Source: Sphingobacteriales bacterium 44-15 (lineage in GTDB: Bacteria > Bacteroidota > Bacteroidia > Chitinophagales > Chitinophagaceae). Taken from it: 63,947 nt of DNA. Both the position numbers and the translations under genes were made by a program. Where the stretch lies: the NCBI GenBank assembly GCA_001899685.1, contig MKWG01000037.1, positions 1 to 63,947 of the forward strand. Direction: 5' to 3'. Positions 2-5,313 of this stretch are shown one piece after another; positions within the stretch are counted from its first letter, which is position 1; each line of letters begins with the position of its first letter. Under the pieces are notes generated by a model, which saw only the letters and a program-made list of their open reading frames with translations, did not search any database and was not told where the DNA came from.

Positions 2-3000
2 GTGCAGGTAGATATTACGGATATAAATGGTGAAACAAGAAGTGAAACTTCGGTTATACCTGTTGGTTATAAATCAGTAGTACTGAACATTGACCTACCG
101 GGTTCACCGGTAGCTACAGACAGCCTGAAAAATATTTTTGTCGGAAGTGCTAACCTGTCAGGAGAACCGGAAAAACTGAATACAACTGTAAAGATATACC
201 CCTTACAGGCGCCGCAACGTTTGATCAGGGAAAGGTATTGGGATAAGCCTGACAAATTTGTTTTCAGCGAAGCTGAATACATAAAACATTTTCCGCATGA
301 TGAGTATAAGGATGAAGCCGACTACCACAACTGGGTAAGAGGGAGCAGTATATATTCAGCAACAGATACAACAAACAAAAAATTTCAGATCTCAAACCAG
401 TCCACCGGAGCGGACATCAAATTCCCCCCCGGCTGGTATGCAATAGAAGCCATCGCGAAAGATAAAGACGGCAATGACATTAAAGCTATTGAATATGTAC
501 AATTATATGATGCGGCAGCAAAAACAATTCCTTTGCCTGAGTATAATTGGTATACAGATATTAAAGCCAATACCCAGCCGGGTGAAACCGCTGGTTTTAT
601 TACGGGAACTGCTGCCACTGATGTATTTCTTATTCAGCAAACAGATAAAACCATTGAAGGGCGCAATGAAAGCAATCAACAAATCTCTTATCAATTCTTT
701 AGCATAAATAATGAAAAGAAAAATTTCAGTTTTCCCATTACAGAAGATGACCGCGGAGGTTTTGGTATAGTACAGCTTTTTGTAAAAGACAACCGCGTTT
801 ATATCAAGAACGCTATCATTTCCGTACCCTGGACAAACAAACAACTTGCTGTTAACCTGTCAACCTTCAGAGAAAAAATGGAGCCCGGCAGTGAAGAAAA
901 ATGGCAGGTAAAAATAAGCGGCAGCAAGGGAGAAAAAGTAGCAGCAGAAATGCTGGCTTCCATGTATGATGCATCATTAGATCAGTTTAAGCCGCACCGT
1001 TGGGTTGTGCCCAATATCTGGACGCAATATTATGCCATTAATTATTGGGATGGCAGGCAGTCATTTACTAATATACAATCTGAGGAAAGAAATACATTTC
1101 CGGTTGATAATGTATATTATGAAAAAAGTTATGACAGGTTAATAGCAATAGAAGCCCGGAGATATGCAATGGCTATGATGAAAAAAGAAGACGCATCAGG
1201 TTTTGCCGGAGCCCCCAGAAGATACTATGATAACAGGAATGCTAATGCCGCTGAAGCAGTAGAAGAAGAGAGTGCAGATTCTGCAACAGTAAAAAGATCG
1301 TTGACAACAGCAGTTGTTACGGTAAAAACAAAAGGTTCTCCTAATGGGAATAGTCAAACAACCACCCGCAAAAACTTCAACGAAACCGCCTTCTTCTTCC
1401 CTGACCTTAAAACAGATGAAGCCGGTAATATCGCTTTCAGCTTTACGATGCCGGAAGCGCTCACCCAATGGAAGATGATGGCTATTGCACATAGTAAAGA
1501 ACTTGCTTTCGGTTATGCGCAACAGTTAGCTGTTACACAAAAAGAGCTGATGGTGCAACCAAACGCGCCGCGTTTTGTAAGGGAAAAAGACAGCATTGCT
1601 TTCAGCGCCAAAATTGTGAATATAGGCGATAAGCCCCTGAATGGCTTTGCCAAACTGGAGTTGGTTGATGCGGCAACGCTCCAACCGGTTGATCATTTAT
1701 TTAACAATGCCGTGCCGGTAAAAGAATTTACGGTTGCCGCCGGGCAAAGCACGCCGGTTCAATTTTTGATCAGCGTGCCGCAAAATTTTAATACAGCGCT
1801 GCAATACCGCATTACCGCCACAACCAATAGCAGCGATGGTAAAACCTTGTCTGACGGAGAAGAAAATATACTGCCGGTGCTGACCAATCAAATGCTGGTT
1901 ACCGAAACGCTGCCGCTGAATATGCGTGGCAACGGCACTAAAAATTTCACCTTTGAAAAATTGCTCAAATCAGGCTTAAGCCATTCGCAAAAAAATTTCG
2001 GGCTTACGATTGAGTATACTTCAAACCCTGCATGGTATGCAGTGCAAGCGCTTCCTTATCTTGCGGAATTTCCCTATGAATGTGCGGAACAAACCTTTAA
2101 CCGGTATTATGCCAATATACTGGCAACCAATATCGCGAATAGTTCACCCCGTATAAAAGCCGTATTCAGCAAATGGCTTACTGATTCAGCCGGCGGTAAA
2201 GGATTGGTTTCCGCGCTTGAAAAAAATGAAGAATTAAAAAGTGTTGTCTTGCAGGAAACGCCCTGGCTGATGCAGGCAAAAAGTGAAACAGAACAAAAGA
2301 AAAATATCGCCCTGCTTTTTGATATGGTACGCATGAGCAATGAAGCAACTTCCAACTTTAATAAGCTGAAAGATATGCAGGCCTCCAATGGTGGTTTTGT
2401 ATGGTTTAAGGGCGGAAGAGATGATCGTTTTATCACACAGTATATTATAACGGGTATCGGGCATCTTCAAAAATTACATGCATTGCCAGCAGAAAGCATG
2501 GCTGAGTGGAAGGATATAGTATCACAGGCATTAGCATATACAGACAACAGCATAAAGGAGGAATATGATCTGCTTGTTAAAACAAAAGCAAAGCTTAAAG
2601 AAAACCAGCTGAGTAATGCAGCCATTCAATATTTGTATATGCGGAGTTTTTTTACAGACAAAAAAGTAACAGGCACTGCTGCTGCAGCTTACAATTACTA
2701 CATGGACCAGGCAAAAAAATACTGGCTTAAACAAAGCAGGTATATGCAGGGCATGATAGCACTGGCTTTATTCAGATCCGGAGACATAAAAACAGCGAAT
2801 GCAATCATTGGTTCATTAAAAGAGCATGCGGTTACGCATGAAGAAATGGGTATGCACTGGAAGGATATCCGCGGCGGGTATTACTGGTACCAGGCGCCCA
2901 TAGAAACGCAGTCATTACTGATTGAAGCATTCAGTGAAATAACAAAAGACAGCCAGGCAGTTAATGATATGAAACTGTGGTTGCTGAAACAAAAGCAAAC

Positions 3001-3736
3001 TCAACATTGGGGTAATACAAAAGCAACCGCCGAAGCCTGCTACGCGTTGCTTCTGCAGGGCAGCGACTGGCTGGCAAATGAACCGAAGGTATCTGTTACA
3101 CTGGGAAAAACAACCGTATCAAATGACAACAATGCAGAAGCCGGCACAGGTTATTTCAAAGCAAGTATTTCTACGGCAGATATTAAACCAGAAATGGGCA
3201 ATATAAAAGTAGCTGTTAGTGCTTCCGCCAAACAAACATCAGGCAGTTGGGGCGCGGTATACTGGCAGTATTTTGAAGACCTTGATAAGATCACACCGCC
3301 TTCAGGAGAAACAATGCCGTTGCAATTAAAGAAACAATTATTCATTCAAAAAAATACAGACCGCGGCCCTGTGCTGGAACCGGTAAACAATAATGCTCAC
3401 CTTAAAGTCGGCGATAAATTAATGGTGAGTATAGAATTGCGGGCAGACAGGGATATGGAATACGTACACATGAAAGACATGAGAGCGGCGGGCACAGAAC
3501 CGGTGAATGTATTAAGTTTCTTTAAATGGCAGGGAGGTTTGGGTTATTATGAAAGCACAAAAGACGCGTCAACCAATTTCTTCTTTAGCTGGTTATCAAA
3601 AGGTACTTACGTTTTTGAATACCTAGTGTTTATTACCCACGAAGGAAATTTTTCTTCAGGTGTTGCAACCATTCAATGCATGTATGCCCCGGAATATATC
3701 TCCCATTCCGAAGGGATAAGGATCATAGTAGAATGA
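2..3736 (+). CDS. alpha-2-macroglobulin family protein (5' partial)
   Basis: This is the C-terminal 1244 residues of a bacterial alpha-2-macroglobulin; the reading frame is open to the window edge, so the true start lies upstream. Such proteins sit in the envelope and are thought to trap attacking proteases by a bait-and-thioester mechanism. Seen here: beta-rich MG-type domains at the N-terminal side, a family-typical alpha-2-macroglobulin block near residues 465-525 (FPDLKTDEAGN ... LTQWKMMAIAHSKELAFGY), and the thioester motif CAEQ at residues 694-697, followed by a helical thioester domain (about 700-1000) and a C-terminal receptor-binding-like domain. The intact CxEQ argues for a thioester-active member rather than the thioester-lacking type. 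No pbpC neighbour is visible in the window. Confidence 0.93.
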   Translation: MQVDITDINGETRSETSVIPVGYKSVVLNIDLPGSPVATDSLKNIFVGSANLSGEPEKLNTTVKIYPLQAPQRLIRERYWDKPDKFVFSEAEYIKHFPHDEYKDEADYHNWVRGSSIYSATDTTNKKFQISNQSTGADIKFPPGWYAIEAIAKDKDGNDIKAIEYVQLYDAAAKTIPLPEYNWYTDIKANTQPGETAGFITGTAATDVFLIQQTDKTIEGRNESNQQISYQFFSINNEKKNFSFPITEDDRGGFGIVQLFVKDNRVYIKNAIISVPWTNKQLAVNLSTFREKMEPGSEEKWQVKISGSKGEKVAAEMLASMYDASLDQFKPHRWVVPNIWTQYYAINYWDGRQSFTNIQSEERNTFPVDNVYYEKSYDRLIAIEARRYAMAMMKKEDASGFAGAPRRYYDNRNANAAEAVEEESADSATVKRSLTTAVVTVKTKGSPNGNSQTTTRKNFNETAFFFPDLKTDEAGNIAFSFTMPEALTQWKMMAIAHSKELAFGYAQQLAVTQKELMVQPNAPRFVREKDSIAFSAKIVNIGDKPLNGFAKLELVDAATLQPVDHLFNNAVPVKEFTVAAGQSTPVQFLISVPQNFNTALQYRITATTNSSDGKTLSDGEENILPVLTNQMLVTETLPLNMRGNGTKNFTFEKLLKSGLSHSQKNFGLTIEYTSNPAWYAVQALPYLAEFPYECAEQTFNRYYANILATNIANSSPRIKAVFSKWLTDSAGGKGLVSALEKNEELKSVVLQETPWLMQAKSETEQKKNIALLFDMVRMSNEATSNFNKLKDMQASNGGFVWFKGGRDDRFITQYIITGIGHLQKLHALPAESMAEWKDIVSQALAYTDNSIKEEYDLLVKTKAKLKENQLSNAAIQYLYMRSFFTDKKVTGTAAAAYNYYMDQAKKYWLKQSRYMQGMIALALFRSGDIKTANAIIGSLKEHAVTHEEMGMHWKDIRGGYYWYQAPIETQSLLIEAFSEITKDSQAVNDMKLWLLKQKQTQHWGNTKATAEACYALLLQGSDWLANEPKVSVTLGKTTVSNDNNAEAGTGYFKASISTADIKPEMGNIKVAVSASAKQTSGSWGAVYWQYFEDLDKITPPSGETMPLQLKKQLFIQKNTDRGPVLEPVNNNAHLKVGDKLMVSIELRADRDMEYVHMKDMRAAGTEPVNVLSFFKWQGGLGYYESTKDASTNFFFSWLSKGTYVFEYLVFITHEGNFSSGVATIQCMYAPEYISHSEGIRIIVE

Positions 3737-3847
3737 TGTGTTAACTTATATCAACCTGAAAACATTAAAAGATCAGTGTAAACAAAGATCGCAACTTAAA
3801 TACCCTGTAACAAGCGATAAGAGATAACCCTTATCGAATCAAAATGA

Positions 3848-3858
3848 CCGAATATCGG
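3848..3858. promoter_or_regulatory. palindromic site upstream of candidate sRNA A
   Basis: CCGAATATCGG has perfect CCGA/TCGG arms around a 3-base centre. It lies in a 25-base block (3841-3865) that is identical in the second unit (4232-4256), and the distance to the presumed -33 element is the same in both units (26 bases between). This fits a binding site for a dimeric regulator; no regulator can be named. Confidence 0.35.
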
Positions 3859-3884
3859 GAAAACGATCACTGCTGCCGAATAAA

Positions 3885-3916
3885 GTTCCTTTCCGGCTTA
3901 AACCATCGCATCTTTA
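3885..3916 (+). promoter_or_regulatory. candidate promoter of sRNA A
   Basis: GTTC, 20 bases, then CATCTTTA. It resembles the Bacteroidota -33/-7 arrangement and the better matches elsewhere in this window (TTTC-N19-TATCTTTA at 22247-22277; GTTTC-N20-TATCTTTA at 27353-27385). It lies in a 53-base block (3877-3929) identical to 4268-4320. The implied transcription start is about 3922. Confidence 0.4.
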
Positions 3917-3921
3917 CATCA

Positions 3922-4090
3922 TCAAACAAGAACAAAACATTATTAGGATAAAGGATCACAGGCTGTAATGAGCGCAGCCCAAAACACCAAGGTTGTTTCA
4001 ATCAATCGCCAAATATTGAGTACATCATTCACTCTTTGCCCTATTGGGAATTTTTGGTTACAGAGCCGGTCTGCAAAGACCGGTTTTTTT
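3922..4090 (+). ncRNA. candidate small RNA A (tandem copy 1)
   Basis: Predicted transcript of about 169 bases from a promoter-like block to an intrinsic terminator, with no convincing open frame. It contains the hairpin GGCTGT-7nt-GCAGCC (3961-3979), a conserved unpaired segment ATCAATCGCCA (4001-4011), a GAGT...ACTC pairing (4018-4034) and the terminator stem. A second copy lies 391 bases downstream. Between the copies the first hairpin keeps its 6-7-6 geometry while the third pair changes from C-G to T-A and the sixth from T-G to C-G, which is compensatory change. No known RNA family is recognised. A repeat element without transcription is the alternative. Confidence 0.5.
4066..4090 (+). 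terminator. intrinsic terminator of sRNA A
   Basis: The stem CCGGTCT/AGACCGG closes a GCAA tetraloop and is followed directly by seven T residues. The same stem family recurs at 4442-4470. Confidence 0.85.
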
Positions 4091-4238
4091 ATTTGATTGA
4101 TAAATATCATTACCATACTATTCAACGTACAGGCTTCACTGCACCAAAAACCTCACTGATTTTATACAGAGATAATCCTCTCAACCGGGGAAAGCTTTTA
4201 ATCCTGCATAAGAGATTACCCCTATCGAAATAAAATGA

Positions 4239-4249
4239 CCGAATATCGG
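4239..4249. promoter_or_regulatory. palindromic site upstream of candidate sRNA B
   Basis: Second copy of CCGAATATCGG, within the 25-base block 4232-4256 identical to 3841-3865. The following 11 bases (4257-4267) differ completely from copy A yet keep the same length, so the spacing to the promoter block is preserved. Confidence 0.35.
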
Positions 4250-4275
4250 GAAAACGGCATCGGCGGGCGAATAAA

Positions 4276-4307
4276 GTTCCTTTCCGGCTTAAACCATCGC
4301 ATCTTTA
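4276..4307 (+). promoter_or_regulatory. candidate promoter of sRNA B
   Basis: GTTC-N20-CATCTTTA inside the 53-base block 4268-4320, identical to copy A. The implied start is about 4313. Confidence 0.4.
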
Positions 4308-4312
4308 CATCA

Positions 4313-4470
4313 TCAAACAAAATCATTAGGATAAAGGATCACAGGTTGCTTTGAATGCAACCAATATTATTGAGGTTAATCTGAATCAATCGCCACGAGT
4401 AAAGATATTTACTCACTGACCCATCAGAATTATTGGATACAAACCGGTCTCAACGACCGGTTTTGTTTTT
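4313..4470 (+). ncRNA. candidate small RNA B (tandem copy 2)
   Basis: Predicted transcript of about 158 bases. It carries the hairpin GGTTGC-7nt-GCAACC (4344-4362), the shared 21-base block 4325-4345, ATCAATCGCCA (4385-4395), a perfect stem GAGTAAA-GATA-TTTACTC (4397-4414) and a terminator. The second stem is longer than in copy A, but the outer GAGT/ACTC pairing is kept. Unpaired blocks are the most conserved and stems vary with compensation, the pattern expected of a structured RNA. It ends 78 bases before the start codon of the 4549 gene, so a leader function for that operon is possible, but the terminator favours an independent RNA. Confidence 0.5.
4442..4470 (+). terminator. intrinsic terminator of sRNA B
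   Basis: The stem AACCGGTC/GACCGGTT closes the loop TCAAC and is followed by TTGTTTTT. It separates the small-RNA unit from the operon beginning at 4549. Confidence 0.8.
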
Positions 4471-4548
4471 ATGTAGTATAAGAAAAATTATGTACAGATA
4501 CCGGTTTGGTAGAAAAGAAAAATAGTTCTACTTTAAACCTTTTTTCAG

Positions 4549-5313
4549 ATGAGCTCATTTGTTCCCGGGAGAAATATATGTTCCTTGCGCACAGCAGGTA
4601 TAATTGCTATTCTGATGCTATACAGCCACCCGGGTGCATGGGCACAGAGCATGGATACCGCATTAACTTCCTTACAGAAAAAAAATGCCATATCGGTTTA
4701 TTACCGGTCATTACAACAGCAATCCGGGCTGTATAATGGAAGCGAATATGTGCCGTACGTAGATATGCTAAAAGAAAGTCATCCCTATTTTGACACTTCA
4801 AAAATGGTAAATGGCAGCGTATATTATAATGGCATAAGCTACACAAACGTACCGATGGTATATGACATTGTCAGGGATGAGCTGATCATCCTGCATTTCA
4901 ACAAAGTATTTTTCCTTCAATTGATCAAAAGCAAAACAGAATCATTCGAGATACTGGGACATTCTTTTGTGCACCTTGGACGGGACAGTACAAAAAAGGA
5001 AGGAGTTCGTGATAGTTTTTACGACCTCCTCTATAACGGGAAGATAAAACTATATGCTAAACGGGAGAAAATGATACTGGAAAGCATTCCCAATATGACC
5101 ATAGAGCGGAAAACATACAGCAAAAACAGGTATTTTATCTTTAAAAAAGATCGCTATACCGAGGTATACAGCAAAAAGTCTTTGCTGTATTTTTTTAATG
5201 ATAAAAAGAGCATATTGAAGCAGTCGTTAAAAAAACAAAAGATCAAATTCAGGAAACAGCGCGAGCAGGCAATTATTGCAATGGTTGAGCAATACGATTT
5301 GATAAATCCCTGA
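4549..5313 (+). CDS. secreted protein of unknown function, first gene of a TonB receptor operon
   Basis: 254 residues. The N-terminus has a hydrophobic segment ending in SHPGAWAQ (residues about 16-33) that looks like a cleavable signal peptide, so the product should be periplasmic or surface-exposed. The mature part is rich in Lys, Tyr and Phe, strongly basic toward the C-terminus (SLKKQKIKFRKQREQA) and has no motif I recognise. Its stop codon is separated by one base from the start of the downstream TonB receptor gene (5315), which indicates translational coupling and a shared role, perhaps as an accessory envelope protein of that receptor. An earlier in-frame start exists upstream but would not place the hydrophobic segment near the N-terminus. 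Confidence 0.75.
   Translation: MSSFVPGRNICSLRTAGIIAILMLYSHPGAWAQSMDTALTSLQKKNAISVYYRSLQQQSGLYNGSEYVPYVDMLKESHPYFDTSKMVNGSVYYNGISYTNVPMVYDIVRDELIILHFNKVFFLQLIKSKTESFEILGHSFVHLGRDSTKKEGVRDSFYDLLYNGKIKLYAKREKMILESIPNMTIERKTYSKNRYFIFKKDRYTEVYSKKSLLYFFNDKKSILKQSLKKQKIKFRKQREQAIIAMVEQYDLINP

Follow-up and report, generated by a model that had tools for sequence, protein, structure and literature searches.

The question raised by this locus is whether two similar noncoding units, lying in tandem behind an alpha-2-macroglobulin gene, encode RNAs of their own and, if so, to what these RNAs belong. The window, i.e. the whole stretch of DNA that was analysed (63,947 bp, Sphingobacteriales bacterium 44-15, family Chitinophagaceae), contains two direct copies 391 bases apart (copy 1 at about 3819-4090, copy 2 at about 4210-4470), which align over 118 nt with 89 percent identity and more loosely beyond, as far as the terminators. 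The spacing of the copies and the shared sequence reported by the initial annotation, i.e. a 53-base identical block, the 21-base block ATTAGGATAAAGGATCACAGG, and ATCAATCGCCA, were all recovered in both units. Downstream follow a 254-codon open frame without Pfam match and a gene with a TonB-receptor plug domain. The units apparently constitute a real, hitherto undescribed small RNA family duplicated in tandem, and the pair apparently forms the visible corner of a noncoding-RNA regulon that seems to be undescribed as well.

Features of the tandem locus (positions in the window) and of related loci in the same genome (positions in the locus named)
Feature	Position	Strand	Basis or remark
Alpha-2-macroglobulin family protein (bMG10, A2M; Pfam)	2..3736	+	Upstream syntenic neighbour of class I genes
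Promoter, copy 1	3819..3918	+	Alignments A7 and A8; R2 match 62.8 bits (sequence itself in the model)
CG boxes, promoter copy 1	C at 3835, 3856, 3877		21 bp apart
CGAATAAAGTT, promoter copy 1	3877..3887		
-7-like CATCTTTACA, promoter copy 1	3909..3918		Preceded by 21-base spacer
Predicted small RNA, copy 1 (class I), about 169 nt	3922..4090	+	Promoter and terminator positions, homologues, fold
Conserved 5' box ATTAGGATAAAGGATC, copy 1	3942..3957	+	Alignments A2 and A3
Hairpin 1, copy 1 (GGCTGT/GCAGCC, 6-7-6)	3961..3979	+	Sequence, covariation
ATCAATCGCCA block, copy 1	4001..4011	+	Sequence, copy-copy alignment
Hairpin 2, copy 1 (GAGT/ACTC, 4 bp)	4018..4034	+	Weak in copy 1
Intrinsic terminator, copy 1	4062..4090 (hairpin 4062-4087)	+	11-pair stem, 4-nt loop, T run
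Promoter, copy 2	4210..4309	+	Alignments A7 and A8; R2 match 56.0 bits
CG boxes, promoter copy 2	C at 4226, 4247, 4268		
CATCTTTACA, promoter copy 2	4300..4309		
Predicted small RNA, copy 2 (class I), about 158 nt	4313..4470	+	Promoter and terminator positions, fold
Conserved 5' box ATTAGGATAAAGGATC, copy 2	4325..4340	+	Alignments
Hairpin 1, copy 2 (GGTTGC/GCAACC, 6-7-6)	4344..4362	+	Covariation, terminator scan
ATCAATCGCCA block, copy 2	4385..4395	+	Sequence, copy-copy alignment
Hairpin 2, copy 2 (GAGTAAA/TTTACTC, 7 bp)	4397..4414	+	Covariation, fold
Intrinsic terminator, copy 2	4441..4470 (hairpin 4441-4463)	+	Terminator scan
Class II relative of the window pair	L097 2434-2533	+	
Class III site	L095 2565-2664	-	
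Class III site	L096 2746-2845	+	
Class III site	L096 10882-10971	-	

The RNA start of copy 1 (about 3922) was placed from the promoter position. About 45 bases of the 53-base identical block precede this likely start, as do the 25-base block and the variable spacer. These blocks, which had been described as parts of an RNA gene, are therefore better read as promoter DNA, and most of the sequence shared between the copies is promoter. The 53-base block extends from CGAATAAAG through the -7-like CATCTTTACA to a few bases inside the predicted RNA. At the other end of the units, the terminator scan of the region returned three hairpins, namely the two that close the units and hairpin 1 of copy 2, against an average of 0.5 in shuffled sequences. 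Each copy does end in a terminator of the same type, as annotated, but the terminators are not unrelated in sequence: a CCGGTC/GACCGG stem is common to both.

The promoter is rigid in layout: across 100 positions, no gap is needed to align 26 of 26 family members (alignment A7, from which G009 was left out as identical to G010) or 68 of 68 sequences of a wider set (alignment A8, i.e. 68 of 76 sites after removal of three near-duplicates and five low-scoring or doubtful sites). Gapless sites are favoured by the way the 76 were picked, i.e. with a matrix that allows no gaps; with model R1, which allows gaps, match length equalled the model span covered in the strong cases checked. The box consensus is near TATCGAAG, and the cytosines of the three CG boxes are present in 75, 76 and 76 of the 76 sites. 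The last box, with the consensus CGAAT(A/T)AAGTT, lies 21 bases before CATCTTT(A/G). It adjoins the -33 region, and its distance from this -7 element of Bacteroidota type is constant. The -7 element of Bacteroidota is TAnnTTTG, which CATCTTT(A/G) resembles. The three boxes are 21 bp apart and therefore lie on one helix face. Direct boxes separated by two helical turns, with an invariant distance to the core promoter, are the layout expected of an activator touching RNA polymerase. LytTR-type regulators bind direct repeats with a spacing of about 21 bp, and such a regulator is a candidate activator, as a lead only. An inverted AAG...CTT element at box 1 (A7 columns 1-16) is found in 20 of 25 class I promoters and is absent from all class II (11), class III (34) and other (6) promoters (classes defined below); it is perhaps a second operator.

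Within the predicted RNAs, the annotated 6-7-6 hairpin and the GAGT/ACTC stem were both located in each copy. Two compensatory pair changes had been claimed for the former; one is a change on both sides (C-G to U-A), but the other is one-sided (U.G to C-G). Both RNAs fold better than most shuffled sequences, copy 1 with a z-score of -2.02 (8 of 200 shuffles as good) and copy 2 with -3.35 (1 of 200). In the clade that retains hairpin 1, the 6-7-6 layout is kept in 8 of 10 sequences. On these 8 chosen sequences, G005 and G002 with a shorter or broken stem being omitted, three of the six pairs have changed on both sides and 91.7 percent of the cells pair. The covariation score is 0.286 vs 0.153, with 2 of 500 shuffles as high, and controls slid by up to three columns scored 0.000 to 0.202. 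For hairpin 2 the covariation is weak: one of five pairs, with three pair types, has changed on both sides, with 34 of 500 shuffles as high, in 8 chosen sequences that exclude copy 1, the copy 1 relative of the metagenome-assembled genome (MAG) SZAS-19 and the more distant members. The predicted RNA structure is kept only in part of the family. Class I bodies without their terminators fold only slightly better than shuffles (mean z -0.68, n 24), and the 5' box is predicted to be no more open than other parts of the RNA (mean unpaired 0.54 vs 0.51, higher in 12 of 24). In the second copies of G006 and G004 (loci L006 and L007), the hairpin 1 loop and a downstream stretch may form an H-type pseudoknot, by eye only; the putative stems are GGTGGT/ACCACC in G006 and GGTGGC/GCCACC in G004, by eye a compensatory change between species.

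A DNA search of 98 relatives, own genome included, gave matches in 12, i.e. 10 within the genus, G034 (promoter only), and G031. The G031 matches cover the -7 region only and were rejected as ordinary promoters of similar protein genes with a signal-like start, as judged by eye. A promoter pattern detected 21 sites in 13 of 394 family genomes, the reversed control pattern giving one match in all. From the 257-Gb GTDB collection, a 42-base pattern retrieved 18 stretches, belonging to Agriterribacter, Paraflavitalea and Terrimonas (all Chitinophagaceae) and to MAG records titled Chitinophagaceae, Bacteroidetes or Sphingobacteriales. Some of these share their sequence with genomes already in the set (Agriterribacter humi YJ03 with G003, Terrimonas sp. 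NS-102 with G006, Paraflavitalea pollutisoli with G306). As G003 and G006 are of the same genus as the window genome, the window belongs to that genus group. No relatives were found in the plasmid collection searched. The 5' box and the GAGGTTG block are kept across species. The search of Chitinophagaceae genomes that had been proposed to check the annotation yielded homologues, and hairpin 1 covaries in the clade keeping it.

The class I genes adjoin the same alpha-2-macroglobulin gene in 9 of 13 class I genomes (the window genome and G001, G002, G003, G005, G007, G010, G011 and SZAS-19), and no homologue of that gene was found in the examined stretches of G004, G006, G008 and G009, some of which reach contig ends. 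In SZAS-19, both copies have relatives, which likewise lie in tandem (484 bases apart); as judged from the alignment, one is nearer to copy 1 and the other to copy 2. As each copy has a counterpart there, the tandem duplication probably predates the split of the window genome and SZAS-19. Class I is a small RNA family duplicated in place, with pairs in five genomes (the window genome G000, SZAS-19, G004, G006 and G007) and a triplet in one, G010; class II genes occur in tandem in G125 and G200. In G010 the three genes (L101 2593-3749, minus strand) lie behind the alpha-2-macroglobulin gene.

Beyond what had been annotated, the promoter is shared and phased and drives several classes of RNA. 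With the sequence-only model R1, sites were detected at E 0.01 in 18 relatives out of 58, and 12 of 12 genomes of the same genus had sites; the matrix scan of the collected stretches gave the 76 promoter sites, with none in the reversed control over 384 kb. The RNAs behind them were assigned to class I (25, including the window pair), defined by the TTAGGATA box, to class II (11), with a GATAGG box or close variant, to class III (34), with at least four CC...G(A/G)AA elements, and to no class (6). Classes I and III are each present in all 12 same-genus genomes. On these alignments and counts, the proposed promoter and RNA classes are well supported. The models place six sites in the own genome. 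Besides the window pair, these are one of class II, C6:241938, and three of class III, C3:346064, C26:29247 and C26:37378. The last was assigned by eye and falls below the matrix cut, so that class III has two own-genome members by matrix and three by models. Two further own-genome matches to a loose box pattern were attributed to chance, as the control gave 3 and 4. The class III locus at L096 10882-10971 lies just upstream of atpD, likewise in seven other genomes. In all, atpD is found just downstream of 8 of 34 class III loci (G000, beside the C26:37378 gene, G001, G004, G005, G006, G009, G010 and G011), which indicates that this locus is old. In L018, a locus related to the class II locus L097, the neighbouring gene looks by eye like an L,D-transpeptidase.

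Known RNA families do not account for the pair. Rfam 15 gave no match in the window at the gathering threshold, and the five sub-threshold matches of a lax search of 3730-4550 were taken as chance; on 11 loci with other regulon members only a tRNA was recognised. The absence of an Rfam match, together with homologues in which promoter, 5' box and terminator are conserved, supports the annotated undescribed family. 6S RNA (RF00013) was considered and set aside, as it had no match in the own genome in a search positive in 5 of 14 controls, which a very divergent 6S RNA would escape. Neither Hfq (PF17209) nor CsrA/RsmA (PF02599) was found in the own genome by searches positive in 5 and 3 of 14 control genomes, respectively, and four RRM_1 loci were identified (E 1.5e-24 to 1.8e-21).

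According to the accessible parts of the reports, the Bacteroides RRM protein RbpB binds the 14-member sRNA family FopS, repressing susC-like mRNAs (PMC11697453), GibS has a near-palindromic PM2 motif, and FopS has canonical sigma-ABfr promoters (PMC11697453, PMC7366714). Considering this precedent, the four RRM_1 proteins and the searches in which Hfq and CsrA were not found, we judge the window pair to be most likely trans-acting sibling sRNAs partnered by an RRM protein. The full model, in which these tandem sibling trans-acting sRNAs belong to a noncoding-RNA regulon under one activator, appears to us fairly probable. Each class I gene would have its own activator-dependent promoter and its own intrinsic terminator, the three boxes would bind one putative activator, and one signal would switch on all RNAs of the regulon together. 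Class I RNAs would act in trans by base pairing via the conserved purine-rich 5' box AUUAGGAUAaAGGAUC, with an RRM protein, not Hfq, as the probable partner. Hairpin 1 and the 3' part may serve to make the RNA more stable or to adjust its range of targets, and duplicate genes could provide a higher dose or a wider target set.

The window pair resembles FopS and GibS, as far as the accessible text describes them, in being multicopy paralogous, mostly intergenic Bacteroidota sRNAs with a conserved 5' part, FopS moreover being bound by an RRM_1 protein where the window host encodes four. In contrast, the three-box phased promoter is not described for them, nor a class III repeat RNA with them, in the accessible parts of those reports (PMC11697453, PMC7366714), the likeness being one of description. 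Rfp18 of Flavobacterium psychrophilum is likewise a conserved structured noncoding RNA in Bacteroidota, but a shared promoter class or tandem copies are not described in the accessible part of its report (PMC9723704), and it was set apart by description. Among the matches listed for Chitinophagaceae and Bacteroidetes sRNAs in the open-licence literature, the portions accessible do not describe these RNAs or this promoter. OmrA/OmrB, PrrF1/PrrF2 and AbcR1/AbcR2 are tandem sibling sRNAs and, like the window pair, adjacent duplicates with shared control and shared parts that have diverged elsewhere; they differ in belonging to unrelated taxa, and the comparison of sequence, by Rfam search alone, gave no match. 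With Gac/Rsm and BarA-UvrY/Csr (RsmXYZ, CsrB/C), the regulon would have in common one activator for several sRNA genes, and it shares multi-site RNAs and sRNA gene duplication. The RNA element of CsrA-type proteins is GGA and the promoter site of GacA is a palindrome. Here, by contrast, the element is AUCCnnUGAAA, the promoter has three 21-bp-phased boxes, and no CsrA was detected in the own genome. Multi-site repeat RNAs behind a shared promoter, in the Gac/Rsm manner, are true of class III, not of the window pair.

With their terminators, class III RNAs are 223-473 nt long (median 315) and poor in G, and they repeat the element ATCC-n-n-TGAAA, which is present in several spacings. The 32 terminator-bearing members have 214 elements vs 78 in shuffles, i.e. 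6.7 per RNA with a median GAAA spacing of 21.5 nt, a count partly circular since the class is defined by the element. When that filter was dropped and every site not in class I or II (40 in all) was taken, the count of ATCCnnTGAAA was 232 vs 85 in 200 Markov shuffles (sd 14, maximum 122) and 0 on the antisense strand. These features would suit a protein-decoy regulon in the manner of Gac/Rsm, in which the noncoding RNAs soak up an RNA-binding protein, class III being the main sponge and classes I and II binding the same protein in an accessory or specialised role. Such a reading, which we regard as unlikely, gains further from the poor folding of class III (mean z +0.81, worse than shuffles), from the four RRM_1 proteins and from a 3' block with (A/T)TATTG that precedes the terminator in class I (11 of 24) as in class III (10 of 32; 1.1 and 1.4, respectively, in shuffles), although the element is not enriched in class I (4 vs 4.9 in shuffles, 25 sites; 11 vs 5.5 in the 11 class II sites), the spacing within it varies and the binding protein is putative. 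The common 3' block also suggests common descent of the 3' modules of classes I and III.

Pairing between the classes was considered as another function of the repeats. In an sRNA/sponge circuit, class I would pair via AGGAUA and AAAGGAUC with the AUCC repeats of class III in mutual antagonism, which we find quite improbable. Per RNA, class I has 1.6 GGAT and 0.25 ATCC, and class III 0.3 and 7.3, and certain class I words have more perfect complements in class III than expected (AGGATA 16 vs 2.6, AAGGATC 8 vs 0.7, GAGGTTG 12 vs 1.2). However, the most conserved words show no such excess (TTAGGATA 0 vs 0.1, TAGGATA 1 vs 0.6), permuted words do equally well (TAGGATA ranks 51 of 210, AGGATC 6 of 180), and the duplex energy of -31.3, vs -29.3 in shuffles (sd 0.7), is nearly equalled by reversed class III (-31.0). 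Duplexes fell within the box in 48 of 53 cases, vs 51.7 in shuffles and 53 with the reversed sequence, the duplexes being too long to discriminate. Because the conserved words are unenriched, and permuted words and reversed class III perform equally, class I/class III pairing is not established. A combined reading, for which we lean somewhat to the negative side, is an RNA-only Chitinophagaceae regulon in which an activator on the three boxes would drive structured class I and II and unstructured class III RNAs, joined in one circuit via a shared RNA-binding protein or mutual pairing, as a Bacteroidota counterpart of Gac/Rsm without CsrA or Hfq.

It is also conceivable, if very improbable, that the units lack an RNA function of their own, being only repeated regulatory DNA or leaders of the following gene, as the promoter is the most conserved part, the RNA bodies diverge fast and the transcripts are predicted. 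The terminators, however, precede the next gene, an automatically found terminator lies downstream of 67 of the 76 promoter sites, hairpin 1 covaries, and the cross-species retention of the 5' box and GAGGTTG block also speaks against it. That the units encode very small proteins can hardly be credited, for although the ATG-led frame of copy 1 is open through the terminator and partly aligns by eye with the copy 1 orthologue of SZAS-19, that orthologue stops early and copy 2 and its orthologue use other frames (by eye), the longest stop-closed frames in class I have 1-22 codons (24 RNAs with terminator) or 34 (the one without), and the changes in hairpin 1 keep pairing.

In its accessible portions, the literature found on regulatory RNA of Bacteroidota concerns mainly Bacteroides and Flavobacterium, and Hfq was not detected in this host. 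The rigid 100-bp promoter signature is a simple handle for finding regulon members in any genome; it is also usable to fish the activator by DNA affinity, and it helps to test binding of the repeat RNAs to protein or to small RNAs.

At family level, model R2 matched 22 of 145 genomes at E 0.001. As its class-level background comprised partial matches in 9 of 196 other genomes (E 4e-5 to 6e-4), family-level matches weaker than about 1e-6 were not counted; at E below 1e-6, 11 of 145 genomes from 8 genera remained. In the loci read, most of the 8 genera have class III-like RNAs, three have class II-like RNAs (one by eye), and class I is confined to the genus of the window and SZAS-19. Similar repeat RNAs follow the promoter in other Chitinophagaceae: in all 23 sites of other genera, at a fixed 200 nt, the element was counted 59 times vs 30 in shuffles (sd 8, maximum 55 of 300 shuffles) and twice on the antisense strand; 6 of the 23 sites lacked it, and a subset of 14 sites chosen by eye gave 55 vs 27. 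In L034 (G034) and L037 (G306), the same promoter is followed by terminator-ended RNAs resembling none of the three classes. In G206, of another genus, four promoter sites lie in tandem within about 1.5 kb (L178), and those at 1880, 2383 and 2874 are followed by what look like repeat RNAs of the class III type.
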